Of a stretch of DNA of 64,000 nucleotides, positions 3,166 to 63,330 are shown in pieces. Position 1 is the first letter of the stretch. Every line of letters begins with the position of its first letter. A program made the translations under genes and the position numbers. Below the pieces are notes generated by a model. The model was not told where the DNA came from, did no database searches, and saw only the letters and a program-made list of their open reading frames with translations. The DNA comes from Deltaproteobacteria bacterium (GTDB lineage Bacteria > Myxococcota_A > UBA796 > UBA2385): assembly GCA_016792625.1 (NCBI GenBank), contig JAEUKK010000142.1:1-64000 (forward strand), given 5' to 3'.

Positions 3166-4131
3166 TCAGGAGCCGCTCGACCCGCTCGACCCGCTCGACC
3201 CGAAAGCAGCCCGCCGCAGGCGATCATTGATCGCCGCGCCCAAGCCGAGCTCGGGCGCCAGCTCGGCGATGAGCAGGTCGACGCCCGCGAGGTCAAGGGC
3301 CCGCAGCTCGGCGTAGAGGCGCTGGGCGTAGCCGGCGAGGTCACCGCCGCTGCGCAGGGTGGCCACCCGCTGCCCCGCCGCGCGCAGGGGGGCCGCCTCG
3401 GCATCGGGGTCGGCGGCCAGCCGCAGGGCGGTGCGCGGCGCGTAGTGGGCGGCCAGGGCGCCCGGCGCCCGGCGCGCCCCCGTCGGCAGGGGCGTGGGCG
3501 GGCGCCCGCGGGCGGCCAGGGCCTCGACCAGGGCCTCGGCGGACAGGCCGCCGGGACGGAGCAGCGCCGGGCCCGCGGGGTCGCAGAGGTCGAGGATGGT
3601 GCTCTCGACGCCAACCTCGCAAGGGCCGCCGTCGACGATGAGCAGGTCAGGGCCGAGCTCGGCCCGCACATGCGCCGCCGTGGTCGGGCTCACCCGCCCA
3701 AAACGGTTGGCGCTGGGCGCGGCCAAGCCGCCCCCCGCCGCGGCGATGAGCGCGCGGGCCAAGGGGTGGGCCGGCACCCGCAGGCCGACCGTGTCCATGC
3801 CGCCGGTGACCTCGTCGGGCACGCCCGAAGCGCGGGGCACCACGAGGGTCAGGGGCCCCGGCCAGAAGTGGGCCGCCAGCGCGTCGAGGGTGGCCCCGCC
3901 GTCGGGCAGGCGCCCGCGATCCACCCAGGCCTCGACCTCGGACGCCTCGGCGAGGTGCACGATCAGCGGGTGATCGACCGGCCGGCCCTTGGCCGCGAAG
4001 ATCTGCCGCACCGCCAGGGGCTCAGAAGCCCGCGCCCCGAGGCCATAGACGGTCTCGGTGGGGAAGGCGACCAGCTGGCGGGCGCGCAGGGCGGCGGCGG
4101 CCGCGGCGAGCGCGGAGGGGTCGGCGGGCAC
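3166..4131 (-). CDS. tsaC: L-threonylcarbamoyladenylate synthase (TsaC/Sua5)
   Basis: This enzyme makes threonylcarbamoyl-AMP from threonine, bicarbonate and ATP for the t6A37 modification of tRNA. The YrdC domain fills the first two thirds, with FPTETVYG (about residues 23-30), a KGRP segment and the SANRFGRVSPTTA region. A linker containing HYAP and a C-terminal Sua5 domain follow, so it is the long Sua5 form (321 residues). I chose the GTG at 4131, with GAGG about seven bases upstream, over an ATG 63 bases further out that lacks family similarity. The tail is three in-frame GSS units encoded by 9-base repeats, an oddity at the very C terminus. Confidence 0.9.
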   Translation of the reverse strand: MPADPSALAAAAAALRARQLVAFPTETVYGLGARASEPLAVRQIFAAKGRPVDHPLIVHLAEASEVEAWVDRGRLPDGGATLDALAAHFWPGPLTLVVPRASGVPDEVTGGMDTVGLRVPAHPLARALIAAAGGGLAAPSANRFGRVSPTTAAHVRAELGPDLLIVDGGPCEVGVESTILDLCDPAGPALLRPGGLSAEALVEALAARGRPPTPLPTGARRAPGALAAHYAPRTALRLAADPDAEAAPLRAAGQRVATLRSGGDLAGYAQRLYAELRALDLAGVDLLIAELAPELGLGAAINDRLRRAAFGSSGSSGSSGS

Positions 4132-4258
4132 GGGGCACCTCAGGGGCGGCGGACGGCCCGGCTGGTAGCGCGCCTGCGCCGCGCCGTCCCGCACCGCTGA
4201 AGCTGTCGGCGGGCAGGCCCTTTCGAGGGCGCCTTCCCAGCGGGGCCCGGGGGCGCGC

Positions 4259-4264
4259 TATGCT
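4259..4264 (+). promoter_or_regulatory. candidate -10 element (TATGCT)
   Basis: TATGCT lies 26 bases upstream of the GTG start of the repeat/IS66-like gene. This is the same spacing class as the TAGGCY hexamers seen before other genes. GGGGAG follows as the ribosome-binding site. Confidence 0.3.
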
Positions 4265-4290
4265 CCACCCCCGTCCGCTCGGGGAGTCCG

Positions 4291-7200
4291 GTGCCCACCT
4301 CCGATCCAGCCCAGCCGCCCGTCCCGCGCTCCCCCGAAGACGCCCCGCCCGCGCCCGAGGCGCCCGGGGCCGAGGCGCGCGCCGCCCTTGAGGCCGTCGA
4401 GGCCGTCGAGGCGGTGGTCGACCAGCTGCCGCCTGACCCGCAGGTCGGCGACGCTCCGCTCGAAGCGACCCTGGCGGCGACGCTCTCGTCCTTGGCTGGG
4501 CTCGACGGCCCGGGCCTCGAGGGCGCGGTGCGGGTCGCTGGCGCCCGGGTCGGCGCCGCGCCGGCAGCCCCTCCCCAAGGCCAAGGCCCGCTCGACCCCA
4601 CCGCCCCCACGCTCGAGCAGGTCGCCGCCCCCACCGGGGCCCGCGCCGGCCGCGCCAAGGCTGTTGTCGCCGAGAGCAGCGAGCTCGACGCTGTGCTCGA
4701 TGAGAAGCCGGCCCGCGCGGCGGGCGGGGCTGGCCCCGATGACCTGCGCCTCGACGACGCCCTGCGCGTCGAAGGCGGCCGGCTGCGCGCCCCGCCGCCC
4801 ACCTCCCCCGCGCCCCCGGGCAGCCTCGACCCCGAGGCCCCCGGCCTCGACGCCCTCGACCAGCTCAGCGGCGGCCGGCTCGGCGCCGCGGCCCCGCCCG
4901 ACGAAGCGGCTGAACCCGAAGAAGACCCGCTGGCCAAGGTCGAGAAGCCGGCCCGCCCGGCCCCGGCCGGCGCCTCGCCGATCGAGCTCTACGGCCACCC
5001 CACCCGCGAGGCCGACCCCCGCGGCGACGGCCCGCCCCCCGACGCCGGCTTCGAGTGGCCGGGAAAACCCGCCACCGACGCCGGTGAGCGCCTGTCGATG
5101 GGGCCTGTGCCCCAGGGCGAGGGCCCGAGCAAGCTTGAGGCGGTCGGCCAGCCCACCGCCGAGGCCAGCGAGCGCGTGCCCCTGCGCCCCGGCCCCAAGG
5201 CCGAGCCCGGCCCCGGCGGCGGCCCCGCGCCCTCGACCGAGGCCGCCGACCGGCTCTCCTTGGTCGAGCTGCCCGCCGCGCTCAAAGAGCCGAGCCCCAT
5301 CGAGGGCTACGGCCAGCCCACCGAAGACGCGGGCGAGCGCGTGCCCCTGCGCCTCAACCCGCCCGCCGAGGTCGGCCCCGGCGGCGGCCCCGCGCCCTCG
5401 ACCAAGGCCGCTGACCGCCTCTCGCTGGTCGAGCTGCCCGCCGCCCTGAAAGAGCCGAGCCCGCTCGAGTCCTACGGCCGCCCCGCGCCCGACGCCGCCG
5501 AGCGCGTGCCGCTCATCGAGCTGCACGCCGCGCTCAAAGAGCCGAGCCCGCTCGAGTCCATGGGCAGCCCGGGCCGCGACGCCAGCGAGCGGGTGGTGCT
5601 GCGCGACCAGGCCCCGGCGGGCGAGGGCCCGAGCCCGATCGAGGGCTATGGCCAGCCCGCCCGCGCCTCGACCGAGCGGGTGGCCCTGGTCGAGCTGCCC
5701 GCCGAGCAGGGCGGCCCGAGCCCGCTCGAAGGCTACGGCCGCCCCGCCGCCGACGCCGCCGAGCGCCTGCGCGCCGCCGAGGTGGGCCCCGGGCCAGCGG
5801 CCCCCTCGCCGCTCGAGAGCGTGGGTCAGCCGGGCAAAGACGCCGCAGAGCGCGTCATCCTCACCGACGAGGCGCCCGCCCCCGAGGGCCCCTCGGCGGT
5901 CGAGGGCTATGGCCAGCCCAGCCGCCTCGCCGCCGACCGCCTGCCGCTGGTCGAGCAAGACGAGGCGCCCGCTGGCCCCTCTCCGCTTGAGGGCATGGGC
6001 AGCCCCAGCCAAGATGCCGCGCAGCGCGTCATCCTCATCGAGCAGCCCGCCGCTCCCACCGGCCCCTCGCTGCTTGAGGGCATGGGCTCCCCCAGCCAAG
6101 ACGCCGCAGAGCGCGTCATCCTCGTCGAGCAGCCCGCCGAGCCCGCCGGCCCCTCGCTGCTTGAGAGCATGGGCTCCCCCAGCCAAGACGCTGCGCAGCG
6201 CGTCATCCTCGTCGAGCAGCCCGCCGATCCAGCGGGCCCCTCTCCCCTCGAGGGCCTGGGCCAGCCGCGCCCCGACGCCGCCGAGCGCGTGCAGCTCACC
6301 GATCAGGCCGCTCCGCCCGACGAGGGCTCGCGGGTCGAGGCCTATGGCCACCCCGCCCGCGACGCCGCCGAGCGCGTGCCGCTCGCCGATCAGGCCGCTC
6401 CGCCCGATGAGGGCTCGCGGGTCGAGGCCTACGGCCACCCCGCCCGCGACGCCGCCGAGCGCGTGCAGATCACCGATCAGGCCCCGGCGCCCGACGAGGG
6501 CTCGCGGGTCGAGGCCTATGGCCACCCCGCCCGCGACGCCGATGAGCGCATCGCCATGCGCCCCGATGCGCCGCCCGCCGAGCAGACCGCGCTCGAGGGC
6601 CTGGGGGGCGCGCCGCGCACCGACGCCGCCGAGCGGGTCGAGGTCAGCGCCGGCTACATCGACGGCCCCTCGGCCACCGGCCCGCTCGAGGGCTACCGCG
6701 ACCCCTCGGGCCAAAAGATCGACCGGGTCGATCTTCACCCCGACGACGAGCCGGCGCCCAACGACACCTTGGGCGCGCTCGGCGCCCCCTCGGCCCGCCG
6801 CGCCGACCGCCTGCGCCGCGTGGACGAGCCTGAAGACGAGCCTCCCGCCAGCCTCGACGCGCTGGGCGAGCCCTCGCCCCAGGCCGACGACCGGGTCGAG
6901 CTCTTCGGCCCCGCCGACCCCAAGCTGCCCGCCAGCACCATGGAGCAGGCCGCCCAGGCCTCGCGCCAGCGGGGCGACCGGGTGGGCGCGCCGACCGCCG
7001 AAGAGCTGGCCATCGCCGCCGCCGCGGCCAGCGAGCTCCGCCTCTCCACCAACCGCGAGGACCGCCTCGGTCGCCCCGACGACCAAGACCTCCCCCTGTC
7101 CACGTTGACCGGCCTCGAGAGCCGCTCCTTGATGGAGGCCGGCCGCCTCACCGCCCGCGAGCACCGCCCGGCGGCCTACGACAACCCCAACGGCCTCGAC

Positions 7201-8478
7201 GCGGTGATGCCCCACGCCGGCCTGCGCGGCGTCGACCGCATGCGCATGCCCGAGGCCGACGAGGACCTGCCCGTCGACCCGGCGCTCATCGGCCGCGTGC
7301 CGGTCATGCCCGAAGAGATCGAGCTGTGGGGTGATCTGCCGCCGAACGAGCGGGTCGGCGCCTGCGGTGAGCCCCGCCGCCGCCTCGGCGAGCGCACCCA
7401 CCACCGCCTCGACTTCCGCTTCCAGCGCTACGAGCTGCTCACCGTGCGCCGCGCGGTCTACGACTGCCCACTCTGCCCCGACGAAGAGCCGGTGGTGGCC
7501 ACGAGCCCGCGCTTCCTCGCCGGGGGTGTGCCCGTGGGCAACGGCCTGCTGGCCCAGCTGGTGGTCGCGCGCTTCGGCGACCACGGCAACCTCAGCGAGC
7601 TCGCCAACTCGATGAGCCGCTACGGCTTGGTCATCGAGGCCGACAAGCTCGACAGCGCCACCCGCAAGGCCGCCGCCGCGGTGCAGCCGATCATCGCGGC
7701 CATCCGGGCCGAGGTGAACGAGGCCAAGCGCGTGCACATCGACGCCCGCGGCCTGCCCACCCGCCGGCCGGGCCCCCAGCGCGACATCATCGGCGAGCTC
7801 TTTTGCGTCAGCGCCGATGATCAGCTCTACTGGGCGATCAAAGAGCCCGCCCAAGGTGGCGACCCCGGCAGCCCCGACCCGACCGAGGGCGCGGGCGGCC
7901 GCAAGGTGCGCGAGGGCGAGGTGGCCTGGAACCTGCTGCGCGACAAGCTCGGGTGGAGCCGCGAGGGCCGCTGGGGTGGCCTGCGTCACCGCCTGACCGT
8001 GGCCCTGATCACCGACCCGCAGCGGGCGGCCTACGGGCTGTTCTTGGTCGGGGCGCTGGGCCAAGCCGCTGGGCCCTCGGGTGACAAGGCCGATCTGGCG
8101 ACCCGCCAGCGCGCGCTGAAGACCTGGCTCGACGAGCAGCAGGCGGCGATGGACAGCCCGAGCACCGCGACGGCCCGGGCGGTCAGCTACGCGCTGCAGC
8201 TCTGGCCGCAGCTGCGCTACGTCGATGAGGCCGGCCGGCCGGTCGACGAGGGCGAGCCGCGGCGCTTCCCCAAGGCCTGGACCGCCCAGTGGGATCTGCA
8301 GAGCACCGCCGACCGCGAGGCCTTGACGACGTGGTGCACGCTGATCGGGTGCTGCCGCCGCCTCGGCCTGCGGCCCTGGGAGTACCTCTACGAGCTGTTT
8401 GAGGCCGTGGCCAACGACGCGATGCGCGAGCCCGCCGCCTGGACCCCGCGGGCCTGGGCCAAGGCCAGCGGCGCTTAG
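4291..8478 (+). CDS. giant 29-residue-repeat protein fused to an IS66 transposase-derived domain
   Basis: The product has 1395 residues. Residues 1-227 are Ala/Pro/Glu-rich. Residues about 228-902 are roughly 25 tandem units near SPLEGYGQPxRDAAERVxL plus a variable acidic/Pro tail, with a period close to 29. Residues about 1007-1385 resemble IS66 transposases: a partial zinc-finger region (ACGEPRRRLGER then CPLC), a GLLAQLVVARFGDH segment, VHIDARG where IS66 has the first catalytic Asp (D1151), and YALQLWPQLRYV (about 1300) plus RPWEYLYELF (about 1366) matching the IS66 C-terminal region. The CxAHxRR block and the DNxAAERALR block with the catalytic Glu are missing or rewritten, so I infer a non-catalytic, domesticated transposase domain. 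The start is GTG after GGGGAG. The gene stands alone between tsaC and queD, and its stop overlaps the convergent queD stop by two bases. Function unknown. Confidence 0.85.
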   Translation: MPTSDPAQPPVPRSPEDAPPAPEAPGAEARAALEAVEAVEAVVDQLPPDPQVGDAPLEATLAATLSSLAGLDGPGLEGAVRVAGARVGAAPAAPPQGQGPLDPTAPTLEQVAAPTGARAGRAKAVVAESSELDAVLDEKPARAAGGAGPDDLRLDDALRVEGGRLRAPPPTSPAPPGSLDPEAPGLDALDQLSGGRLGAAAPPDEAAEPEEDPLAKVEKPARPAPAGASPIELYGHPTREADPRGDGPPPDAGFEWPGKPATDAGERLSMGPVPQGEGPSKLEAVGQPTAEASERVPLRPGPKAEPGPGGGPAPSTEAADRLSLVELPAALKEPSPIEGYGQPTEDAGERVPLRLNPPAEVGPGGGPAPSTKAADRLSLVELPAALKEPSPLESYGRPAPDAAERVPLIELHAALKEPSPLESMGSPGRDASERVVLRDQAPAGEGPSPIEGYGQPARASTERVALVELPAEQGGPSPLEGYGRPAADAAERLRAAEVGPGPAAPSPLESVGQPGKDAAERVILTDEAPAPEGPSAVEGYGQPSRLAADRLPLVEQDEAPAGPSPLEGMGSPSQDAAQRVILIEQPAAPTGPSLLEGMGSPSQDAAERVILVEQPAEPAGPSLLESMGSPSQDAAQRVILVEQPADPAGPSPLEGLGQPRPDAAERVQLTDQAAPPDEGSRVEAYGHPARDAAERVPLADQAAPPDEGSRVEAYGHPARDAAERVQITDQAPAPDEGSRVEAYGHPARDADERIAMRPDAPPAEQTALEGLGGAPRTDAAERVEVSAGYIDGPSATGPLEGYRDPSGQKIDRVDLHPDDEPAPNDTLGALGAPSARRADRLRRVDEPEDEPPASLDALGEPSPQADDRVELFGPADPKLPASTMEQAAQASRQRGDRVGAPTAEELAIAAAAASELRLSTNREDRLGRPDDQDLPLSTLTGLESRSLMEAGRLTAREHRPAAYDNPNGLDAVMPHAGLRGVDRMRMPEADEDLPVDPALIGRVPVMPEEIELWGDLPPNERVGACGEPRRRLGERTHHRLDFRFQRYELLTVRRAVYDCPLCPDEEPVVATSPRFLAGGVPVGNGLLAQLVVARFGDHGNLSELANSMSRYGLVIEADKLDSATRKAAAAVQPIIAAIRAEVNEAKRVHIDARGLPTRRPGPQRDIIGELFCVSADDQLYWAIKEPAQGGDPGSPDPTEGAGGRKVREGEVAWNLLRDKLGWSREGRWGGLRHRLTVALITDPQRAAYGLFLVGALGQAAGPSGDKADLATRQRALKTWLDEQQAAMDSPSTATARAVSYALQLWPQLRYVDEAGRPVDEGEPRRFPKAWTAQWDLQSTADREALTTWCTLIGCCRRLGLRPWEYLYELFEAVANDAMREPAAWTPRAWAKASGA
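4972..6996 (+). repeat. 87-bp coding tandem repeat array
   Basis: About 25 in-frame units of close to 87 bp encode the 29-residue repeat. Most have drifted, but the three units starting at 6319, 6406 and 6493 are nearly identical in DNA, as are those at 5989, 6076 and 6163. This suggests recent local duplications inside an old array. Confidence 0.85.
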
Positions 8479-8996
8479 GCCGGCTGGGCCCAGCCCGGGG
8501 TGTCGCGGAACCAGGCCGCGTTCTTCTGGTTCTCGCGGCACTCGACCGCCTCGCACCAAGCCCGGCCGCCGTGCAGCTCGAGCAGCAGGGCGTTGGCCTG
8601 CGCCCAGGCGAGGCGGGCGCAGTACTCCATGCTCACCGAGGGCAGCACGCGCAGGGCGGCGGCCCCGCGGGCCTCGAGCGCCCGGAAGGTGGGCAGCTCG
8701 GGGTCATCGTCGCAGAGCAGCAAGGTGTGGTCGAACCAGTGCTCGAGCCAGGCCTTGAGCGGCTTGAGGCCGCCGAAGTCGACGATGAAGTGGGTGTCGG
8801 TCAACGCCCGCGCGGCGAACTCAAAGTGGAAGCTGCGCGAGTAGCCGTGCACAAAGGCGCAGTGGCTGTCGTCGCGCCACTGGCGGTGGGCGCAGGGCAG
8901 GTCGTGGAAGGTCTTGGTGCTGCGAAACAGCGCGGGGGACGTCAACCCCGGCGGAAAAGGCACGGTGGCGGGCAGGGTCGCGGGCGGGCGGGGCAT
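8475..8996 (-). CDS. queD: 6-carboxytetrahydropterin synthase-like protein (QueD/PTPS family)
   Basis: The 173-residue protein belongs to the QueD/6-pyruvoyl-tetrahydropterin synthase family, which converts dihydroneopterin triphosphate to 6-carboxytetrahydropterin on the way to queuosine. Visible features are CAHRQW (His37), FVHGYS (His50), FHFEF (His57), [13 protein letters not shown] and a DHTLLL segment, then a C-terminal ECREN motif with the conserved Glu. The usual HGH metal motif reads HGY here, a variant I recall from another large QueD-like clade. The ATG has GGAGG upstream, and GCTAGC at 9022-9027 is a candidate -10. No other queuosine gene is nearby. Confidence 0.85.
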
Positions 8997-10938: not shown

Positions 10939-11101
10939 ACCGCGTGCGGCCGGGGGTTCGCCGCTGCGCGGCTCCGTCGGCCCGGGGCCGACCGCCTGCG
11001 GCGCCCCTCTGCCCGCTGGCGCGGTGTGGGTGAACGTGGGTCACGCGGCGCCGGGTGCCCATCGAAGCAACATCGCCCACGGGGCCTCACTGGGGACACC
11101 G

Positions 11102-12481
11102 ATGTACATCAGCAAACTTGAGCTTCGGAACATTCGGGGAGTGGGAGCTCGCGGCTTGGTCCTGGATCTCGCACGCACCGGGTCCCCCAGCCATAGTTCA
11201 CACGCGGGATGGACGGTAATCGCCGGGTCCAATGGCGCCGGCAAGACCACGTTGCTGCAGGCGATGGCCGCCACTCTGCTCGGCGGAACGGGGACGAACT
11301 GGCTATTTCGCCCAGAGGACCGCCGGGATTGGATCTACCAGCGAGGTCGAAAGGCGGCCTTGTCAGACCTTGGCACCACCTGCGCGTGGATCGAGCGCGT
11401 GCCATCAGACGACGACGCGGCTCCGCGGGAGCAAACCGTGGCGCCGGTGCCCCTGCGCGTCGTTTGGCCACGTGACCACTCTTGGGTTCGTGAGCTTCCG
11501 CCAGAGGGCGAGCACTCGACGCTCCTCCACCAGTTCTGGAACGCGGCGGCGTGGGGCACCACGCCGGCTGGCTGGATGTTTGCAGCGTACGGGCCACATC
11601 GAAGCAACCGCCAAAGTTCGCCCGACTCGGCTTCACTGCTCCGCGGCCCCCCGCGGTCAGCCGCCGTCGTGACCCTGTTTCGACAAGACGCCGGACTTGA
11701 GGGCGTCAACGGCTGGCTCATCGACCTGGAGCTCCGAGCAGCGCGCCGCCAAGGCGCGGCAGCCGCGGCGGTTCGGGATGGTGTACTTCGACTGTTGGGC
11801 GATGGGCTTGTCGAAGCGAACAAACGAACCCAGTTAAAGGTCGAGGCCGACGGTTTGCACGTGCGCTGGGGCGCTGGGTGGCGGCCGATCCGTCAACTCG
11901 GCGATGGCTTTTACTCCACCCTTGTGATGGTCGCCGACATTTTGATGCGCGTCGACCAGTTCCGGCCAGGTCGACTGCTGGAGGAGATCCAGACTTGGCC
12001 GTCGACACCCGACTTCATTCCGGCGCTGAATATGTCGGGCGTCGTCGTGATCGACGAGCCAGAGGGTCACCTCCACCCCGACCTGCAGCAGCGGCTCGGC
12101 TTTTGGCTCAAACAGCACTTTCCGAAGCTCCAATTCATTGTCACCACCCACAGCCCGCTCATCTGCCAGGCCGCAGAGCCTGGTGGGCTGTTTCGGATGC
12201 CGAAAACCGGGGCGATTGAGGCCGTGGACTCCGAAACTTGGGCCCGGGTCGTCAACGGCACCCTCGACACCTCTGTGACGAGCCACCTGTTCGACCTAAA
12301 GAGCGCCGAGTCGGATCGGGCAGCGAAGCAAAGGCGTCGCTTGGCCGAGCTGATGATCAAGTGGCGCCGCGAAGGACTGAGCCCTGACGAGCAAGCCGAG
12401 CAGCAAGGCCTGTCGGCGCGCCTCCCCACAGAGCCGTCCTACCAGCTCGATACGCTCGTTCAGGGACTGCTTCGCCTATGA
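11102..12481 (+). CDS. ptuA: Septu-type ATPase PtuA (predicted)
   Basis: The 459-residue AAA/ABC-like ATPase has the RecF/SMC-like layout of defence ATPases. It shows MYISKLELRNIRG at the N terminus, Walker A GSNGAGKTT (42-50), an ABC-signature-like LGDGFYSTLVMVADIL, Walker B VVVIDEPEGHLHP (about 314-326) and the His switch TTHSPL (about 348-353). An HNH gene follows directly, overlapping by ATGA. In Septu, PtuA and PtuB form a complex that stops phage infection. Base composition is clearly less G+C-rich than neighbours, which suggests transfer. The start is the ATG at 11102, with only a weak GGGGAC upstream. Other AAA-HNH defence pairs remain possible. Confidence 0.8.
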   Translation: MYISKLELRNIRGVGARGLVLDLARTGSPSHSSHAGWTVIAGSNGAGKTTLLQAMAATLLGGTGTNWLFRPEDRRDWIYQRGRKAALSDLGTTCAWIERVPSDDDAAPREQTVAPVPLRVVWPRDHSWVRELPPEGEHSTLLHQFWNAAAWGTTPAGWMFAAYGPHRSNRQSSPDSASLLRGPPRSAAVVTLFRQDAGLEGVNGWLIDLELRAARRQGAAAAAVRDGVLRLLGDGLVEANKRTQLKVEADGLHVRWGAGWRPIRQLGDGFYSTLVMVADILMRVDQFRPGRLLEEIQTWPSTPDFIPALNMSGVVVIDEPEGHLHPDLQQRLGFWLKQHFPKLQFIVTTHSPLICQAAEPGGLFRMPKTGAIEAVDSETWARVVNGTLDTSVTSHLFDLKSAESDRAAKQRRRLAELMIKWRREGLSPDEQAEQQGLSARLPTEPSYQLDTLVQGLLRL

Positions 12482-13206
12482 GGGCGCTGTCCCGAACCCC
12501 GGTCGCACAGCTACCGAGGGGTCTCCATGTTCAACTTGTGAAGCAGGGCTCGCGAATACGCCAGCTACGTACACACCAGTTGCGGGCAGCAGCCGCCGAC
12601 AAAAACTGGGGCAACGCTGGTCGGAAGCAGTTGATGCGCGCATTGATCAACATGAATGCGGGCCATGATCGGTGCATGTACTGCGAGTACAGCGAGGCAG
12701 GTACGGTTGATCACTTCTGCCCGCGCGCGCGCGACCCCAACCAGACTTTTCACTGGCGCAACCTGATCCTGGCATGTGGACGTTGCCAGGCTGCGAAAGG
12801 TGATCGGTTCAACAAAGAGCTGCTCAACCCGGCACGCCACGGTTACACGCCGTCCGACCACTTCGAGCTTGAATCGGATACCGGAGAGTTCGTCCTCCTC
12901 TCGGCTGAATCAAAGTCAACCAACCAAATTATTCGATGGGAACGGGACATTCTCGTTAGGAGCAGAAGAGCAACACTCCAAAGCTACCAAGCAGCGATCA
13001 TCGCATACGCCGAGGCGATCAATGTAAGGAACACCGCCTCGAGTCAAAAGGCGGTCCAGTGGGCTCGCGATTTGCCTCACCCCACGGTATTCGATTGGAT
13101 CATCCATTGGTGCCTCCAGGGTCCCCCAGCCCAGGGTCCAGATCCCCTTGACCCGAGGGTGCGCTCGGCGGTGGCCGCCCACCCCGGGATTCGCACTTGG
13201 CTGTGA
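12478..13206 (+). CDS. ptuB: Septu-type HNH endonuclease PtuB (predicted)
   Basis: The 242-residue HNH nuclease resembles the TIGR02646/PtuB family. Zinc knuckles are CMYC (66-69) and CGRC (100-103). The core is VDHFCP (77-82, His79 the likely catalytic His), then HWRNLILAC (92-100, Asn95) and a Lys107 after the second knuckle. It should be the nuclease effector of the PtuA partner. The ATG overlaps the ptuA stop by four bases, so translation is probably coupled. Base composition and codon use (AAT, ATA, AAA present) contrast with the chromosome around it. No reverse transcriptase is adjacent, so this is not a retron-type Septu. Confidence 0.82.
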   Translation: MRALSRTPVAQLPRGLHVQLVKQGSRIRQLRTHQLRAAAADKNWGNAGRKQLMRALINMNAGHDRCMYCEYSEAGTVDHFCPRARDPNQTFHWRNLILACGRCQAAKGDRFNKELLNPARHGYTPSDHFELESDTGEFVLLSAESKSTNQIIRWERDILVRSRRATLQSYQAAIIAYAEAINVRNTASSQKAVQWARDLPHPTVFDWIIHWCLQGPPAQGPDPLDPRVRSAVAAHPGIRTWL

Positions 13207-27238: not shown

Positions 27239-27310
27239 GGCGGCTCCAGAGGGCGGAGGCGCGCGTATTCCGCGACCCCGCGCGCCGCTTCGGGAGGGGC
27301 GCGCCGCGCT

Positions 27311-27325
27311 TGACACAGCTTGTCA
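27311..27325. promoter_or_regulatory. inverted repeat TGACA-cagct-TGTCA
   Basis: This 15-base inverted repeat lies in the 482-base gap between the amidohydrolase and parA genes, inside one of the few A+T-rich patches. It also contains TTGACA (27310-27315), but no -10 follows at standard spacing. It may be a regulator binding site. Confidence 0.4.
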
Positions 27326-27433
27326 TCGCCGGCGCACCGCACGCGGGCCGGCCCCGGGTGGCGACGGAAGCTGCCCGCCGACCGCGGGGCCGCGTCGGCG
27401 GCAGCACCCGCGGCCTTGAGGTCATTCCTTGGG

Positions 27434-27459
27434 GGTGCTCTTGCGTTGCCAAGAGCACC
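27434..27459 (+). promoter_or_regulatory. perfect 10-bp hairpin upstream of parAB
   Basis: GGTGCTCTTG-cgttgc-CAAGAGCACC is a perfect inverted repeat, followed by TAAGGT (27464-27469), a possible -10. It is not a parS site (no TGTTTCACGTGAAACA-like core). It could be an operator or leader stem. Confidence 0.5.
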
Positions 27460-27474
27460 TCGCTAAGGTCGCGC

Positions 27475-27720
27475 ACCTACCGGCGCGGTTCCCGCCGCGC
27501 TCCCCCTCTCGCGGTCCCCTGGACCTCGAGGCCCCGCCCCCCGCCACGGTCCCTCCGCGGCGGCACGGGGGCGAGCCCCCTCCCGGCTCGCCGCGCTGAC
27601 CCCTCCCCAGGGTTCGCGCCCTTGAGCGCCCCTCCCCCGGGCATCCCCCTCCAGGTCTGCCGGCCCCGCGCCGGCCCCCGCGCTGAGCCCCTCCCGCCTC
27701 TCCCCGGGGACATTGCCGTC
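27475..27720 (+). other. long C-rich, G-poor leader of parAB
   Basis: About 245 bases before parA are rich in runs of C and T, and contain CGCGCTGANCCCCTCCC-like segments twice (near 27590 and 27685). No gene is convincing here, although the parA frame stays open upstream. C-rich, G-poor RNA is what Rho binds, so Rho-linked control of parAB is possible. Confidence 0.4.
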
Positions 27721-28572
27721 ATGCCGCGCGTCATCGCGATCTCCAACCAGAAGGGTGGGGTGGGCAAGACCACCACCGCCATCAACCTCGCCGCGGCGCT
27801 CGCCCTCGAGGACCGCTCGGTGCTCTTGGTCGACCTCGACCCGCAGGGCAACTGCAGCAGCGGCGTCGGCCTGCCCAAGAGCGAGAACAAGCACGGCATC
27901 GCTGATGTGCTCCTCGGCTTCCGCGAGCTGCGCGATGTTGTGGTGCCCACCGAGGTCGACGGCCTGCACCTCGCCGCGGCGACCCGCGAGCTGGTCGGCG
28001 TCGAGGTTGAGCTGGTCGACGCGGATGAGCGTGAGTTCCGCCTGCGGGGCGCGCTGCGCAGCCAGGCGAGCCAGTACGACTACGTGGTGCTCGACTGCCC
28101 GCCCTCGCTGGGCATGCTGACGGTCAACGGGCTCGCCGCCGCCGATGGCGTCGTCATCCCGCTGCAGGCCGAGTACTACGCGATGGAGGGCCTCGGCGAG
28201 CTGCTGCGGGCGGTCAAGCAGATCCGCAAGGGCGGCCTGAACCGCGACCTGAAGACCAGCGGCATCCTGCTCACGATGGTCGACCGCCGCACGCGCCTCG
28301 GGCGCGATGTCTGCGAGCAGGCCCGGCAGGTCTTCGGCGCGGATGTCTTCGACGCCGAGATCCCGCGCAACATCCGGCTGGCTGAGGCGCCGTCCTTCGG
28401 CAAGCCCATCCACGCCTACGACCCGCTCAGCCGCGGCGCGCTCGCCTACACCCACCTCGCGCTCGAGCTCATCGCCCGCGAAGAGGGCGGCCAGAACGGC
28501 GCCTTTGACCAGGCCCACGAAGAGAGCGCTCGCCCCACCCTGCGGGTGCTGAGCGGCGGAGGTGTTGCATGA
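27721..28572 (+). CDS. parA: chromosome-partitioning ATPase ParA/Soj
   Basis: The 283-residue ATPase drives segregation of ParB-bound origins. It begins right at the deviant Walker A motif (KGGVGKTT, 11-18, with the signature Lys11) and continues with LVDLDPQGN (Walker A'), VVLDCPPSLG (Walker B) and IPRNIRLAEAPSFGKP, all typical of chromosomal Soj. The start is the ATG at 27721; the frame extends far upstream but without family similarity. The stop overlaps the parB start by four bases (ATGA). In M. xanthus parA and parB also lie next to a bactofilin gene, as here. Confidence 0.95.
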   Translation: MPRVIAISNQKGGVGKTTTAINLAAALALEDRSVLLVDLDPQGNCSSGVGLPKSENKHGIADVLLGFRELRDVVVPTEVDGLHLAAATRELVGVEVELVDADEREFRLRGALRSQASQYDYVVLDCPPSLGMLTVNGLAAADGVVIPLQAEYYAMEGLGELLRAVKQIRKGGLNRDLKTSGILLTMVDRRTRLGRDVCEQARQVFGADVFDAEIPRNIRLAEAPSFGKPIHAYDPLSRGALAYTHLALELIAREEGGQNGAFDQAHEESARPTLRVLSGGGVA

Positions 28573-29459
28573 CCCCACGGCTCGGCCGCGGCCTCGCCGC
28601 CCTCATCCCCGGCGTCGACATGGACGAGCCGGGCCTGCCGCCCGACGCGCCCAAGGGCACGCAGCAGGCGCTGCGCATGCTGCGCCTCGACCGCATCCGG
28701 CCGAACCCTGAGCAGCCCCGCATGACCTTCTCGGGCCCCGCGCTCGAGGAGCTCGCCGAGAGCATCCGCATGCACGGCGTGATCACGCCGCTGCTGGTGC
28801 GCCGCGAAGAGCGGGGCGACGGCTATGTGCTCATCGCCGGCGAGCGCCGCCTGCGGGCCAGCGGCTTGGCCGGCCTCGAAGAGGTGCCCTGCTGGGTGCG
28901 CGAGCAGCTCGGCGACCGCGAGCAGCTCGAGCTGGCGCTGGTCGAGAACATCCAGCGCGAAGACCTCGACCCCATCGAGACCGCCGAGAGCTACTACCGC
29001 CTCGTCGACGAGTTCGGCCTCACCCAGGCCGAGGTCGCCCGCCGGGTGGGCAAAGACCGCGCCACGGTGGCCAACGCCATCCGCCTGCTGCGCCTGCCTG
29101 AGTTCGCCCTCGAGCAGCTGCGCGCCGCCGCGATCACCGCCGGCCACGGCAAGGCCCTGCTGAGCATCAGCGACGACGAGCAGCTCAAGAAGGTCCTCAA
29201 GGACGTCATCGCCCGCGATCTGAGCGTGCGGGCGACCGAGAAGCTGGTGGCCAGCCTCGTGCAGCCCGACGCCCGCCGCGCCAAGGGCCCGACCCCGGCG
29301 ATGGTCAAGCTCGGCGAGCGCCTGACCCAGAAGTTGGGCAGCAAGGTGCGCATCGAGGCCCGCAGCCGCGGCCACCGCGGCCGCATCGTCATCGACTACG
29401 CGAGCCGCGAAGAGCTCGACGGCCTCATCGAGCGCTTCGCCGACGCCGCCGCGCGCTGA
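28569..29459 (+). CDS. parB: chromosome-partitioning CTPase ParB/Spo0J
   Basis: The 296-residue protein binds parS, clamps on DNA with CTP and activates ParA. The N-terminal LGRGLAAL box (5-12) is the ParA-contacting motif. The NPEQPR segment (46-51), the CTP-binding GERR (91-94) and ENIQRED (126-132) are present. A helix-turn-helix spans about 151-175, and a dimerisation tail ends the protein. The ATG overlaps the parA stop. I found no parS sequence in the window. Confidence 0.95.
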   Translation: MTPRLGRGLAALIPGVDMDEPGLPPDAPKGTQQALRMLRLDRIRPNPEQPRMTFSGPALEELAESIRMHGVITPLLVRREERGDGYVLIAGERRLRASGLAGLEEVPCWVREQLGDREQLELALVENIQREDLDPIETAESYYRLVDEFGLTQAEVARRVGKDRATVANAIRLLRLPEFALEQLRAAAITAGHGKALLSISDDEQLKKVLKDVIARDLSVRATEKLVASLVQPDARRAKGPTPAMVKLGERLTQKLGSKVRIEARSRGHRGRIVIDYASREELDGLIERFADAAAR

Positions 29460-35385: not shown

Positions 35386-37986
<2,601 letters not shown>

Positions 37987-57228: not shown

Positions 57229-60200
57229 TTAGAGCAGGCCGGTCAGCTGCTTGGTGGTGCCGGTGGTGGTGTTGCCCGCGTTGTCGTAGGCGCACAGCCG
57301 GTAGGTGTACTTACGGCCGGCCACCTGCCCGGTGTGCTCGAAGACGCGGTCGGGGCCGTTGTAGAGCACGGTGCCCGAGGTGCAGCCCGAGGCCGGGGAC
57401 GAGGTGCCTTCGCGCACCACCAGCTTGTAGCCGGCGAGGCCCGAGCTGGCGTCGGTCGAGGCCGTCCAGCTCAGGTTGCTGACCCCGCCCACCGCCGCGG
57501 TGCCCGAGAGCGTCGAGACCGTCGGCGCGGTGGTCTCGTAGATGATCGTGTCGGTCACGTTGGCGCTGGTGTTGCCGTAGCGGTCGCGGAACTTCACGTA
57601 GACCGTCTTGGTGCCCGCCCCCGAGGACAGCGTGTGGGTCTTCGTCGTCGCGTAGGTCACCCAGCTCGTGCAGCTGGTCGTGTTGCTCACGCACATCTGG
57701 GTCACGCCCGAGTCGTCGGTGGCCGAGATGGTCAGCGTGCTGGCCGTGGTCTTCGTGCCGATGGCGCCCGCGTTGATGCTCAGGCTGCCGCCCGCGGGGG
57801 CGGTGGTGTCGGCCGTGCTGACCAAGAAGGTCGTGCCCGCCGACATATTGCCCGCCGCGTCGATCGCGCAGACCCGCACGCCGTAGACCTGCCCGCCGAG
57901 CAGGCCGGTGATGTCGGCCGCGCTGTCGGCGCCGCTGTAGCCCAGCGTGCCGGTCGAGCAGCTCGAAGGCGGCGTGCTCAGCGCGTAGACCGCGCGGTAG
58001 CTGGCCACGCCCGAGTCGGCGTCGGAATAGTCCGACCACTCGAAGTGGGCGGTGCGGTCTGAGGTGGCGACGCCGGTGGCGTCTCCGTCGACGGGCAGCA
58101 CCGTCTCGACCTGGATGCTGTCGCTCACCGGCGTGAGGCTGCGGTTGCCCCAGGTGTCTTCGAACCAGGCGTAGAGGGTCTGCTCGCCGCTGATCCCGGC
58201 GAGGGTGGCGCTGACCGGGCCGGGGTAGGCCTCCCACGCGGTGCAGCTGTCGGGGCTGTCCGACACGCAGACCTGGGCCACGCCGGTCTCGTCGGTGGCG
58301 TCGGCGGTCACCGAGACGCTGGCCGTGTTCGTCCAGCCGGCGCCGGCGTTGATCGTGATGCTACCGACCGGGCCGTCAAACTCGGGCAGGGGCCGCACCA
58401 CCAGCGTGTCGCCGACCGAGACATTGCCCACCGCGTCGACCGCGCAGAGGCGCAGGGCGTAGCGCTGGCCGGGGGTGAGGTCGGTGAGGGTGGTGAGGTC
58501 CTCGACGCCCTCCCAGCTGTATTCGCCCGAGGCGCAGTCTTCGGGGGCCTCGGTGCCCGCGTTGTAGGCGATGCGGTAGCCCGCGAGGCCGCTGCCGGTG
58601 TCGAAGGCGCCCGACCAGGAGAGGTCGACCGTGGTTCCAGTCACGCCATCTTCGACGAGGGTGGCGTCTTCAGGCACGGTCTGGTCGAGCTGGAGGCTGT
58701 CGCTGGCCGGCGCGAGGCTCTCGTTGCCGTAGCTGTCGCGGAACCAGACGTTGACCGTGTGCACGCCGTCGCCCGCCTCGATGCTGAACGGCAGGCTGGG
58801 CTCGTAGGGCTGCCAGTCGCTGCAGCTCTCGGCCTCGCTGAAGCAGACCTCGGCGACCCCTGCGGTGTCGGTGGCGCTGCTCTCGACGCTGACCTCGAGG
58901 CTGCCGGTGAACTCGGCGCCGCCGTCGAGGCTGACCAGCCCGTCGATCGGGGCGGTGGCGTCGATGGTCATCCGGGTCTCGAGCACGCCCGGCGACAGGT
59001 TGCCGGCGAGGTCGAGGGCGCAGACCCGCACGTTGACCGTGGTGCCCAAGGCCAGCTCAGCCAGGGCGGCCGAGGTGTCGGCGCCGCGGTAGAGCTCTTC
59101 ACCCTCAGTGCAGCTGTCGGGAGCGACCTCACCCACGGTGTAGACGACGACATAGGACGCGAGGCCCGTGGTCTCGTCCAAGAAGCCCGACCAGTCGGCG
59201 GTGAGCGTGGTGTCGTCGGACTGGGCCAAGCTCAGCTCGCCGTCGAGCGGCGCGGCGCGGTCGACGGTGATCTCGGCTTCAAGCGGCGCTTCGCTGACGT
59301 TCCCGATGCCGTCGCGGAACCAAGCGTAGAGGGTGAGCGGGCCGTCTTCACCCTCGGGGACCTCCCAGGTGGCGGCGGTGTCGTAGGCCACCCAATCCTC
59401 GCAGAGGTCGGGGTCGTTCGAGATGCACATCTCGGCGACGCCGTCGGCGTCTTCGGCGTCGAGGGTGAGGTCGAGCACGCTGTCGGCGGTGTAGAGCTCA
59501 CCTTCGTTGATTAGCAGCCCCGCGCCCGCCGGCCCCTCGGCGTTGTCGGCGGTCGAGGCCAGCAGCGTCACGCCGGCCGAGATGTTGCCCACCGTGTCGA
59601 CGGCGCAGACGCGCAGGCTGTAGGCCTGCCCCGGGCGCAGGCCCGAGACCGTGGCCTGCTCACCCGGGCCTGAGAAGCCCACCCGCCCCGCCGTGCAGCT
59701 GGCCGGGGCGCGCAGCCCCGCGGCATAGGTCACGATGTAGGAGGCCACGTCGGTGTGCACATCGCTGAACCCAGCCCACTGCACGTCAATCTCGCTGCCG
59801 CTGGCCGTGCTCGCCTCGGCGGTGCCGTTCACCGGGCGGGTCTGGTCTTGCAGCACCGTGTCGCTGACCGCGGCGGTGGTGACGTTGTTGTAGACGTCTT
59901 TGAAGAAGGCGCGCACGGTGCGGTTGCCCGTGCCGCCGCTGAGCGTCCAGGTCTTGGTGGTCGCGTAGGTCGTCCACGCCGTGCAGGTGGTGGAGTTGGT
60001 CAAGCAGACGTGGCTGACCCGGGTGTCGTCCTCAGCGGAGAGGGTGAGGGTCACCCGGGCGCCCTTGACCGCGGCCGCGCCGCCGGCGATCTCGACCGAG
60101 CCGCCGGTGGGGGCGTTGTACTCGGGGGCCGGGCGGCCGCTGACCACCTTGCCCGACGAGATGTTGCCCGCCGCGTCGACCGCGCAGACCCGCCAGCTGT

Positions 60201-61857
60201 AGGTCAGGCCGTCGACCAGGCCGGTGCGGGTGAAGTCACCGTCGGCGCTGGTCATCACCGCCCGGCCGGTGCAGCTCGAGGGCGCGCGGATGCCGGTGGC
60301 CTGCATGAGCTTGTACGAGGCCACGCCGCTGAGCGCGTCGGTGAAGCCGGTGGCGGTGATCTGCGCGGTGCCCGCGCTGGTGGTGATGCCCAGGGTGCCG
60401 TTGACCGGCTTGGTCAGGTCGAGCCCGATGCTGTCGCTGACCGGGGCCGCGGTGACGTTGCCCATCGTGTCGCGGTACCAGGCGTTGACCGTGTGGGTGC
60501 CGTTGGAGCGGCGGATCGCCGCGCGCACGGTCGGGCGGTTGGCCACCCAGCTCGTGCAGCTGGCCGCCTCGCTGAGGCAGATGTGGCTGACCCCGCTCGG
60601 GTCGGTGGCCGCGGTGGTGACGGTCAGGCTGGCCGAGTTGGTCCAGGCGGCGCCGCCGTTGAGCTCGATCGAGGCGTCGGTGGGCGCGTCGTACTCGCTG
60701 GCCGGCCGCGCGGTGACCGTCGCCCCGGCAGAGATGTTGCCGGCGCCGTCGATCGCGCACAGCCGCCAGGCGTAGGTGGTGCCATCGGTGAGCCCGGTGA
60801 CCGTGGTGCTCGCGCCCGTGCCGCGCCAGGCCTCGGTGCCCGCGGTGCAGGAGGAGGGCGGGGTGGTGCCTGTCGCGCGCCGCAGCACGTACTCGGCGAT
60901 GCCCGTGCCCGGGTCGGCGAAGCCCGACCAGCTGAACTCGACCTCGCCGCTGCCCGCGGTCGCGGTCAGGGTGCCGTCGGTGGGGCGGGTCGCGTCGTAG
61001 ATGATCGTGTCAGTGACCGGATCGGAGACATTGCCCGCCGCGTCGCGAAAGCGCACGTAGACGGTGCGGGGCCCGGCGGCGCCCGAGAGGGAGGTGGCGC
61101 CCGTGGACGCGTAGCTGACCCATGAGCTGCAGGAGCTCGACTGGCTCACGCACATCTGGGTGACCGCGGTGTCGTCGGTGGCCGAGAGGGCGAGGCTGAC
61201 CCGCGAGGCGCGGGTGGTGGCGTCGCCGCCGTTGATCACCACCGAGACGCCGACCGGCGCGGTGGTGTCGCCGCTGGTCGAGGCCGCGGGGCGGGCGCCG
61301 CCCACCGCGCCGCCCGCCACCGCCGGCGCGCAGCGCTCGGCCTCTTCTTCGGTCAGCGGGCGCTCATCAAGGCGGTGCAGGCCGCCCCCGGGGCCCGCCT
61401 CGGCGAGCAGGGCGGCGAGCAGGGCCTCGCCCTCGGCGCCGACCAGGAGCGCCCGCCCGCCCTCGGGGCCCCCGCACCAAGACAGCTGCGCGGCGAGCCG
61501 CCGCGGCAGCTCACCCTCGAGCTGCACGCCCGCCGCCCCGCCGGCCCGCAGCTGGGCGCGCACCGGCGCGAGGGCCTCGATCAAGTCGAGCGCGCCCGCC
61601 GGGCGGACGGCCTCGCCCGTGTCGCCCCACCGCTCGTCGCCGGCCCCCTCGCCCAGCGGGGGCGCCGCGTCATCGGCCTCGTCGTCGGCCAGGGCCGCCG
61701 CAGCGCCGGTGTCGAGGGCCTGCGCGCCGGCCTCGGCGCCGCCGCCCACGACGACCCGATCGGCCTCGCCCACGCCGTCGACCGCCCGCTCGCAGGCAGA
61801 GAGGCCGCAGAGCAGCGTGATGATGCGGAGAGCGGCGTGGTTCTGGCGCAGCGACAT
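57229..61857 (-). CDS. very large Ig-like/FN3-repeat lipoprotein
   Basis: The 1542-residue protein has a lipoprotein signal (hydrophobic TLLCGLSAC, lipobox Cys22), an acidic unstructured part (about 30-195) and seven repeats of about 190 residues each, starting near residue 198. Every repeat pairs an Ig-like domain, with a C-x-S-x4-C-x2-W core and VYVRFRDxxGNxS, and a FN3-like domain with YxxxxCAxDxxGNxS and SWSGFxD. Each carries paired Cys. It is probably exported to the outer membrane surface as an adhesin or structural protein. Repeats differ enough that the array is old. The start is ATG; the leader contains a perfect hairpin. Confidence 0.82.
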   Translation of the reverse strand: MSLRQNHAALRIITLLCGLSACERAVDGVGEADRVVVGGGAEAGAQALDTGAAAALADDEADDAAPPLGEGAGDERWGDTGEAVRPAGALDLIEALAPVRAQLRAGGAAGVQLEGELPRRLAAQLSWCGGPEGGRALLVGAEGEALLAALLAEAGPGGGLHRLDERPLTEEEAERCAPAVAGGAVGGARPAASTSGDTTAPVGVSVVINGGDATTRASRVSLALSATDDTAVTQMCVSQSSSCSSWVSYASTGATSLSGAAGPRTVYVRFRDAAGNVSDPVTDTIIYDATRPTDGTLTATAGSGEVEFSWSGFADPGTGIAEYVLRRATGTTPPSSCTAGTEAWRGTGASTTVTGLTDGTTYAWRLCAIDGAGNISAGATVTARPASEYDAPTDASIELNGGAAWTNSASLTVTTAATDPSGVSHICLSEAASCTSWVANRPTVRAAIRRSNGTHTVNAWYRDTMGNVTAAPVSDSIGLDLTKPVNGTLGITTSAGTAQITATGFTDALSGVASYKLMQATGIRAPSSCTGRAVMTSADGDFTRTGLVDGLTYSWRVCAVDAAGNISSGKVVSGRPAPEYNAPTGGSVEIAGGAAAVKGARVTLTLSAEDDTRVSHVCLTNSTTCTAWTTYATTKTWTLSGGTGNRTVRAFFKDVYNNVTTAAVSDTVLQDQTRPVNGTAEASTASGSEIDVQWAGFSDVHTDVASYIVTYAAGLRAPASCTAGRVGFSGPGEQATVSGLRPGQAYSLRVCAVDTVGNISAGVTLLASTADNAEGPAGAGLLINEGELYTADSVLDLTLDAEDADGVAEMCISNDPDLCEDWVAYDTAATWEVPEGEDGPLTLYAWFRDGIGNVSEAPLEAEITVDRAAPLDGELSLAQSDDTTLTADWSGFLDETTGLASYVVVYTVGEVAPDSCTEGEELYRGADTSAALAELALGTTVNVRVCALDLAGNLSPGVLETRMTIDATAPIDGLVSLDGGAEFTGSLEVSVESSATDTAGVAEVCFSEAESCSDWQPYEPSLPFSIEAGDGVHTVNVWFRDSYGNESLAPASDSLQLDQTVPEDATLVEDGVTGTTVDLSWSGAFDTGSGLAGYRIAYNAGTEAPEDCASGEYSWEGVEDLTTLTDLTPGQRYALRLCAVDAVGNVSVGDTLVVRPLPEFDGPVGSITINAGAGWTNTASVSVTADATDETGVAQVCVSDSPDSCTAWEAYPGPVSATLAGISGEQTLYAWFEDTWGNRSLTPVSDSIQVETVLPVDGDATGVATSDRTAHFEWSDYSDADSGVASYRAVYALSTPPSSCSTGTLGYSGADSAADITGLLGGQVYGVRVCAIDAAGNMSAGTTFLVSTADTTAPAGGSLSINAGAIGTKTTASTLTISATDDSGVTQMCVSNTTSCTSWVTYATTKTHTLSSGAGTKTVYVKFRDRYGNTSANVTDTIIYETTAPTVSTLSGTAAVGGVSNLSWTASTDASSGLAGYKLVVREGTSSPASGCTSGTVLYNGPDRVFEHTGQVAGRKYTYRLCAYDNAGNTTTGTTKQLTGLL

Positions 61858-61869
61858 CGGACACCCCAG

Positions 61870-61893
61870 GGTGGGGCGCGCCTGCGCCCCACC
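61870..61893 (-). promoter_or_regulatory. hairpin in the leader of the lipoprotein gene
   Basis: GGTGGGGCG-cgcctg-CGCCCCACC is a perfect 9-bp inverted repeat ending 12 bases before the start codon. It could hide the ribosome-binding site. Confidence 0.45.
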
Positions 61894-62322
61894 TGCGTAA
61901 CGACACAGACCGGTCAGACCCTTAGCGGACCGCCGCGCCGCGCCGCCGACCGGGGCCCAAAAGGGCCAGGCGGAACCCCCGAAGGGGGGGGTGCGACGGA
62001 AGCGGAGCGCGGGGCCCGGCTCGGCCAGATTGATGATGTGCAGGTCTTTGCCAGAAGGCAAGGCCACCGAAAACGAGGCCGAGGAAGTGCTCCAGCAGCA
62101 GATCGTCGCCGCGGGGCCCAGCGAGGGGCGCTGGCCCGGCGGCGCGCCGCGGCGGAGGCACGGATGGCGCGCCGCCTTCCGCGCGGTGGGCCTCAAAAAC
62201 ACGTACGGCAGAGCCCTGACCCCGACTGAGGCCCCCCCCCCGAGGTCACCGCTTGTCACCGCGCCGAAGTACTGGTTCCCGTCGGCCCTGTGTGGCCCCA
62301 TGCTTCGCCATTGGAGTGCCCT
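61894..62322. other. gene-free divergent region
   Basis: This stretch lies between the lipoprotein gene (minus) and the next gene (plus). It contains a run of nine C (62228-62236 area), short palindromes and one A+T-richer patch near 62070. Short open frames exist, but none resembles a protein I know. Promoters for both neighbours should lie here; I cannot place them. Confidence 0.4.
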
Positions 62323-63330
62323 GTGCGTCGCGCCGCCCCCTCGTCCACCCTCGACACCCCGCGCCTTCTGCTGATCGGGGCCGGCCTCGTGCTCGGCCCG
62401 ATGCTGCTGGCGGGGGGCTGGCGGGCCCTCACCCGCTCGGCCGACCGGGCCTGCCGCTGGGCCGAGGCGCCGCCCGCCGCCGCCGCCTGGGTCTTCGCCC
62501 AAGAGGGCTTTCACACCTCGCTCGACGACCTGCTGCGCTACGGCGCCTGCCGCGCCCAGAGTGAGCCGCTGGCCGACGCGATCGCCGCCTGCGCGGCCCT
62601 GCCCGCGCCGATGCGCTCTGATTGCATCGACGGCGTGGGACATGGCATCCCCGCCGGGGCGGTCAGCCCCGAGCTCGCCGTGGGGGCGCTGGCCAGCCTG
62701 CCCGGCCCCGCCCGGGCCCAGCTGGCCGACGGCATGGCGCGGTCATGGGCCGAGGGGGCGGGCGGCGAGCCCGAGGCGACCACCGCCGCCCTCCAAGCCG
62801 CGGGGATCGCCCCCGGGGACGTGATCAACGGCCTGCGCATCGGCCTGCAGCGCAGCCGCGGCGACGACCTGCCCGCGGCCATCGCCACCGCCACGCGCTG
62901 GCCCGCCTCGGCCTGGCCGGCGCTGTTCGAAGAGCTCGGCTGGCGCGCCGGCGACGAGGGGCCCACGGCCCCCTTCGCCCACCTCGGCCTCGTGCCCGCC
63001 CCCGCCCAGGCGGCCTATGTGCGGGGGGCGGCCCGCGGGGCGGCCCTCAAGTTGGTCCATGGCCTCAGCCCGGCCGAGGCCGCCGCCCCCCTCAACGCCC
63101 TGCTCGCCACGCTCAGCGCCCAGCGCCCCACCGACGGCCGTGAGCTGCGCTGGGGGGTGGCGGCGGCGATCCAGCTCAGCCGCTGGCCCCCCGCCGAGAA
63201 GGCGGCGCTGCTCGAGGCCACCGGCCTGACCGAGGTGGCCCGCGAGCGCGCCGACGCGGTCGGGCTGGGCATCTGGGCCGGCCCCGAAGACCTGCCGGTC
63301 AGCGCGCAGCAGCCGACGATCCTGCGCTGA
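62323..63330 (+). CDS. membrane-anchored protein of unknown function
   Basis: The 335-residue protein has one N-terminal membrane helix (about 14-33, LLLIGAGLVLGPMLLAGGW), then a helical domain with spaced Cys residues (DRACRWAE, YGACRAQ, AACAALPAP, SDCIDGVGHGI). The Cys-x-DGVGHG motif recalls a Cys/His-containing domain of unknown role. The rest is Ala-rich helices without catalytic motifs I know. I chose the GTG at 62323, six bases after GGAG; the frame is open a little further upstream. The phosphatidylcholine synthase gene follows after 54 bases on the same strand. Confidence 0.55.
   Translation: MRRAAPSSTLDTPRLLLIGAGLVLGPMLLAGGWRALTRSADRACRWAEAPPAAAAWVFAQEGFHTSLDDLLRYGACRAQSEPLADAIAACAALPAPMRSDCIDGVGHGIPAGAVSPELAVGALASLPGPARAQLADGMARSWAEGAGGEPEATTAALQAAGIAPGDVINGLRIGLQRSRGDDLPAAIATATRWPASAWPALFEELGWRAGDEGPTAPFAHLGLVPAPAQAAYVRGAARGAALKLVHGLSPAEAAAPLNALLATLSAQRPTDGRELRWGVAAAIQLSRWPPAEKAALLEATGLTEVARERADAVGLGIWAGPEDLPVSAQQPTILR

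Follow-up and report, generated by a model that had tools for sequence, protein, structure and literature searches.

A probable domesticated IS66 transposase with a 29-residue repeat arm in an uncultured myxococcotal lineage

A gene at positions 4291-8478 (+) of the window, by which is meant the whole 64,000-nucleotide stretch of DNA analysed here, very probably encodes a domesticated, catalytically dead derivative of an IS66 transposase. Its C-terminal domain descends from IS66, has lost catalytic and zinc-binding residues and is predicted to retain the rest of the fold, and it is preceded by a long N-terminal arm built largely of a 29-residue repeat. The domain is conserved in seven genomes, whose copies form a single clade.

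Layout of the gene and its repeat arm

The gene consists of a single open frame of 1395 codons, as the sequence-only reading proposed, and comprises the following features:

4291-8478, +, whole gene, 1395 residues, GTG start, the start being backed by the similar N-termini of relatives
4291-4971, +, residues 1-227, leader rich in Pro and Ala with degenerate repeat units
4972-6996, +, residues 228-902, 23 copies of a 29-residue repeat, net charge -57, no Cys
6997-7290, +, residues 903-1000, linker, alignable with the G005 relative
7291-8475, +, residues 1001-1395, IS66-transposase-derived domain
7360-7476, +, remnant of the zf-IS66 zinc finger with an incomplete zinc Cys tetrad (Pfam E 0.26, and alignment)
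7534-7815, +, top Pfam match, PF03050 (profile positions 4-97 of 284), from the HTH-like helices to just beyond the strand of the first Asp
7741-7743, +, first catalytic Asp, residue 1151 (HIDARG), retained in 6 of 7 members (alignment)
7852-7950, +, low-confidence loop and one helix, in place of the helix A, strand 4 (second Asp), helix B and strand 5 seen in intact IS66 (AlphaFold model against intact control)
7966-7992, +, AHxRR remnant RWGGLRHRL, Arg retained, His gone (alignment)
8212-8304, +, rewritten stretch, whose IS66 counterpart is NNxxE...GRxxWxFAG with the catalytic Glu (alignment)
8338-8418, +, IS66 C-terminal element PF13817, weak here (E 0.069), clearer in relatives (2e-4 and 2.7e-5)

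G+C by codon position over 4291-8478 (+) is 0.82/0.57/0.93, which is the pattern of the genome's genes and identifies the + strand as the coding one. An antisense frame of about equal length (4258-8559, 1433 residues) has its G+C peak at codon position 1 and is the shadow of the 4291-8478 gene. Relatives encode the same frame as this gene, and the first residues are alike across the gene and its relatives (VPTSDP, VPEPDQ, MSTKDQ, MASKDQ, MTTKDT), which supports the GTG start.

The 29-residue period of the arm is real: autocorrelation reaches 0.396 at lag 29, whereas none of 1000 shuffles exceeded 0.148, and harmonic peaks follow at 58, 87 and 116; Tandem Repeats Finder reports a period of 87 nt. 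The 23 units counted in residues 228-902, each exactly 29 residues long, come close to the 'about 25' first estimated and have the core S-P-L-E-x-Y-G-x-P-x3-A-x-E-R-V; the invariance of R in this core is by construction, since R was used as the anchor, whereas E, G and P were not anchored. Some adjacent units are nearly identical (e.g., those ending near residues 695, 724 and 753), a sign of recent tandem duplication. The same repeat is present in the G005 relative, a protein of 1215 residues with 34.5% identity over 1031 aligned residues (about 38% in the C-terminal domain), in which the E, G and P positions are kept and synonymous codons differ. It was found on no other gene in the window's own genome or among 63 genomes, occurring in two genomes only and always in this gene.

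All members with a readable N-terminus have a Cys-free, disorder-prone arm rich in Pro, Ala and Ser, and the TOP-IDP disorder propensity is 0.27 for the arm vs. 0.11 for the domain. The arm varies greatly among members in sequence, charge and length (about 140 to 1000 residues). In G026 and in genus g2 it is short and contains at most degenerate repeat units. The arm of G007 (L025:9190-11000) carries another repeat, PGDPTVxGARVG, and as assembled its reading frame does not match that of the domain, reflecting either an assembly error or decay. The description of the arm as acidic, made from the window protein, applies to two of the four members measured; in the others the net charge is near zero.

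Relationship to IS66 and state of the active site

The order of motifs in the C-terminal domain follows that of IS66 transposases, as originally read, and the relationship is borne out by significant profile matches of this region to both PF03050 and NF033517. PF03050 matches residues 1082-1175 at 42.6 bits (E 6.6e-11; cut-off 23.1), and NCBIfam NF033517 matches the window protein at 83.8 bits (E 1.2e-23), below its 180-bit equivalog cut-off. Four members score 57-84 bits with NF033517 (relatives 57-64), and two intact IS66 controls from this order reach 318 and 365; as the equivalog cut-off is so widely missed, the domain is a relative of the functional IS66 transposase family, not a member of it. 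Identity to ordinary IS66 proteins is 17-25% overall and differs by segment, reaching 29% in the C-terminal helices and 24% in the helical segment after the zinc finger, and falling to its lowest value, 13%, in the Glu segment. A sequence search of the PDB with the family profile returned no match.

Residues were compared in an alignment of the seven members with eight ordinary IS66 proteins. The first Asp is kept in six of the seven members, and the second, present in all eight ordinary IS66 proteins, is absent from every member. None of the six members that reach the Glu segment has the NN of NNxxE or the GR of GRxxWxFAG; two have an E at the Glu column, yet within the rewritten segment. A complete zinc Cys tetrad is likewise found in none of the seven, although the fourth Cys varies also in some ordinary IS66 rows. 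In the DDE triad of the window protein, the first Asp is thus present, the second absent and the Glu block rewritten. No catalysis is expected, because the second Asp is absent. The sequence-only reading had correctly noted the surviving first Asp and the rewritten Glu block; the second Asp is gone as well, and the AHxRR block, which it gave as lost or rewritten, is still recognisable as RWGGLRHRL, the first Arg being retained in all seven members and the His lost in five. Its proposal that the DNA-binding part had been kept has only partial support: the zinc tetrad is broken in all seven members and the IS66 leader has been replaced, but the helices after the finger, which look HTH-like, and the C-terminal helices are the segments closest to IS66. 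The catalytic residues are general to DDE transposases, and it is on this basis, the tree described below being unrooted, that the dead form is taken as the derived one.

AlphaFold models of the window domain and of an intact IS66 control share one input of 15 sequences and are both confident (pLDDT 86.7 and pTM 0.87 for the window domain, 87.1 and 0.82 for the control). Residues 174-207 of the intact model run through helix A, strand 4, which carries the second Asp, helix B and strand 5; the window domain has one helix there and, at 188-208, a loop of low confidence, which together replace everything from helix A to strand 5. The window model has no strand of at least three residues after residue 184, whereas the control has strands at 186-189 and 205-207, and it has neither a helix nor a long strand at the position of the catalytic-Glu segment. 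The domain is therefore predicted to be a transposase fold minus its active-site half. The top Foldseek match is the ISCth4 transposase, with E 1.2e-3 and TM 0.29 for the window domain against 3.0e-6 and 0.50 for intact IS66, and the intact control matches the Hermes, Mos1 and integrase cores better, which the window domain does not.

The family and its genomic setting

Searches with the window domain and then with a profile identified seven members, one copy per genome: G000 (the window), G005, G007, G002, G008, G009 and G026. The carriers are six of the ten genomes of the window's family (in the tool's grouping) together with G026, which belongs to another family of the order. The score gap is clear, members having E <= 1.6e-72 and the next match, an ordinary IS66 protein, 4.5e-45. 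The same-genus genome G001 (78% complete) has no match to the domain; absence in several non-carriers is uncertain, as the genomes are incomplete. Outside the order, no further members were found in the class or in 379 phylum genomes, for which the best five candidates per genome were scored. A contig scan with the window domain gave no match, and one with the g2 members led to three MAG records. Three members lie in records named Myxococcota MAG.533, Deltaproteobacteria UBA2385 and an Oligoflexia MAG, which indicates a host lineage among uncultured Myxococcota/former Deltaproteobacteria. Phages yielded no match and viral contigs nothing related; plasmid versions were rejected, as the plasmid matches listed are only IS66-like (26-28% identity). 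Two candidate second copies, G008:C303 and G009:C365, were also rejected, being broken remnants of ordinary IS66 (L107, L108). Two members are truncated by contig ends, G002 at its 5' and G008 at its 3' end.

In an unrooted maximum-likelihood tree with 23 IS66 transposases, the seven members form one clade (support 100/100, 100% of bootstraps). No intact IS66 element was found at the locus in relatives, which hold the same dead form. Seven single-copy members in one clade agree with the original view that an IS66 transposase gave rise to a host gene whose product is catalytically dead and which is neither an element nor a lone decayed copy, and retention by relatives indicates that the gene is not junk. 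For three pairs of one genus, dN/dS is about 0.33, 0.37 and 0.71 in the C-terminal domain and 0.46, 0.55 and 0.99 in the arm; third positions are G+C-saturated, and these ratios, from only three pairs, are likely upper estimates, dS being underestimated where third-position G+C is so extreme.

The gene is solitary, with Sua5 (3166-4194, -) on one side, QueD/PTPS (8475-8996, -) on the other and neither TnpA nor TnpB beside it, so that the reported lack of transposase accessory neighbours is confirmed. None of the inverted repeats flanking it stands out among 151 G+C-driven pairs, such pairs being many in a G+C-rich background. The contig carries parAB, gyrA and RF3 and is therefore chromosomal; the chromosomal parA-parB pair lies at 27310-29459 and gyrA at 35386-37986 (-). 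No neighbour genes are common to different genera, and in relatives Sua5 is on contigs other than that of the dead gene. Within genus g2, a nearby radical SAM gene is shared, which shows that inheritance there is vertical.

Several other loci were recorded. A Septu pair at 11024-13206, detected by PADLOC, comprises PtuA (11024-12481, E 2.5e-97) and the HNH protein PtuB (12478-13206, E 7.6e-34), lies where third-position G+C is lower and was probably acquired. A Uma2-family putative endonuclease is encoded at 591-1229 beside an ABC-F protein gene, and an 1804-residue protein with fibronectin type III domains at 57229-62643 (-). Near the G026 relative, L026:941-6428 contains tail tube, sheath and Pvc16-like genes of a contractile injection system (eCIS). 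A link between this cluster and the family was considered and rejected, because 57 of the order's 63 genomes have Pvc16_N; in the window's genome it is on a different contig from the gene.

Possible roles and known systems

In the favoured reading, a host of an uncultured Myxococcota/deltaproteobacterial lineage with high G+C recruited an IS66 transposase (TnpC) as one of its own genes. The RNase H-like domain lost its catalytic half, which comprised the second Asp with the strands around it and also the Glu block; the zinc finger was broken, and selection presumably maintained the remaining fold. The N-terminal part would have been swapped for a disordered arm, whose short motifs may expand and contract by tandem duplication. 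The folded domain would hold one partner, either DNA or itself as a dimer, with no catalysis, and the arm would present its short motif many times over to another partner, so that the protein would serve as a multivalent scaffold or tether. Such a role is favoured because a stable domain that bears a single short motif in a long array argues for multivalent binding. Several observations count against the reading: the arm differs so much between members that one function common to all arms is doubtful, genera share no gene neighbour, the same-genus genome G001 lacks a match, the dN/dS values come from three pairs at saturated sites, and the arm of G007 is out of frame as assembled. Domestication itself is well supported. 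The whole explanation, an exapted non-enzymatic IS66 transposase with its fold kept and a fast-changing multivalent disordered arm acting as scaffold or tether, has roughly an even chance of being correct; the scaffold step, which we infer together with the binding partners, has an even chance at best and perhaps somewhat less. A more specific version, in which excision of the active-site half and addition of an expandable array of 29-residue binding motifs produced a purely structural multivalent scaffold (e.g., a DNA-tethered or self-assembling organiser), is rather doubtful.

Another possibility is that the domain binds DNA non-specifically and the arm drives condensation, making the protein an organiser of the nucleoid or of a condensate. 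The transposase ancestry, the HTH-like helices retained within the best Pfam match and the long disorder-prone arm with its many identical motifs are all consistent with this. However, the window domain has a net charge of 0 (pI 7.1, with values of 8-10 found in other members), the arm is acidic in the window protein (-57) but near neutral in two relatives, and the zinc finger is broken in all members, which leaves such a role unlikely. Somewhat less likely again is control of transposition, whereby a dead TnpC would bind IS66 ends or join transpososomes and block resident IS66 in a dominant-negative manner. The long repeat arm is not accounted for by a repressor role, and neither the zinc finger nor the IS66 leader is left. 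While intact-looking IS66 copies are present in several carriers (G000, G002, G007, G008), and the first-Asp strand and surrounding helices are retained, carrier G005 (83% complete) is without any PF03050 match and G009 has only a remnant IS66 besides the dead gene.

It is very improbable that the gene is a decayed IS66 pseudogene whose frame is open by chance. High G+C does open frames by chance, the antisense frame of 1433 residues being likewise open, and the arm of the G007 relative is broken. Against this, the seven members of the clade jointly lack the second Asp and the zinc tetrad, yet their domain remains foldable, and third-position G+C on the + strand is 0.93. In addition, the C-terminal domain has dN below dS for the three pairs of one genus, albeit at saturated sites, and true IS66 remnants in these genomes are of another kind, being fragments that resemble ordinary IS66. 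The proposed anti-phage defence role is the least probable of all and was not upheld: the Septu genes (PtuA/PtuB) about 2.5 kb downstream are a chance neighbour and defence is otherwise unsupported, PADLOC has no match for the window protein or two relatives, the other members lie among unrelated genes that differ between genera (mostly housekeeping or of no assigned role), and inheritance within genus g2 is vertical at one place.

The favoured reading of a recruited, non-enzymatic transposase describes a bacterial case that looks unusual, in that the catalytic core has been removed while several genera retain what is left of the fold. The repeat arm offers a natural experiment in the growth of a disordered, motif-bearing region on a recruited domain, and the family is small and directly testable.

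The window domain shares with IS66 TnpC (PF03050, PF13005, PF13817; NF033517) the order of segments from the zinc-finger region to the C-terminal element, the predicted fold except for the active-site half and, in six of seven members, the first catalytic Asp. It differs in that the family lacks the second Asp and has a rewritten Glu block and a broken zinc finger, and the window gene is single copy, without TnpA/TnpB or evident ends, its leader replaced by a long repeat arm. The ISCth4 transposase (IS256 family; PDB 6xg8, 6xgx), which provides the top fold matches of the window domain model, is catalytically competent and has no arm, and the match is weak (TM 0.29). Domesticated transposases are well known, mainly in eukaryotes. 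Kat1 and the Paramecium piggyBac enzyme still cut DNA, unlike the window family, and the REP-associated tyrosine transposases (RAYTs) are of the tyrosine (HUH) type, unrelated to IS66. All three are, like the window gene, single-copy host genes of transposase descent, but none is known to have the IS66 fold or a 29-residue repeat arm. Kat1 is a eukaryotic domesticated transposase (PMC4763223), Paramecium has a domesticated piggyBac transposase (PMC3408717), and RAYTs are domesticated transposases of bacteria (PMC2817692). In the literature on domestication and on IS66, with incomplete journal coverage, no description of an IS66-derived host protein was found. A domesticated transposase is a known kind of protein, whereas the family described here seems to be new, as do the excision of its active-site half and its repeat arm.
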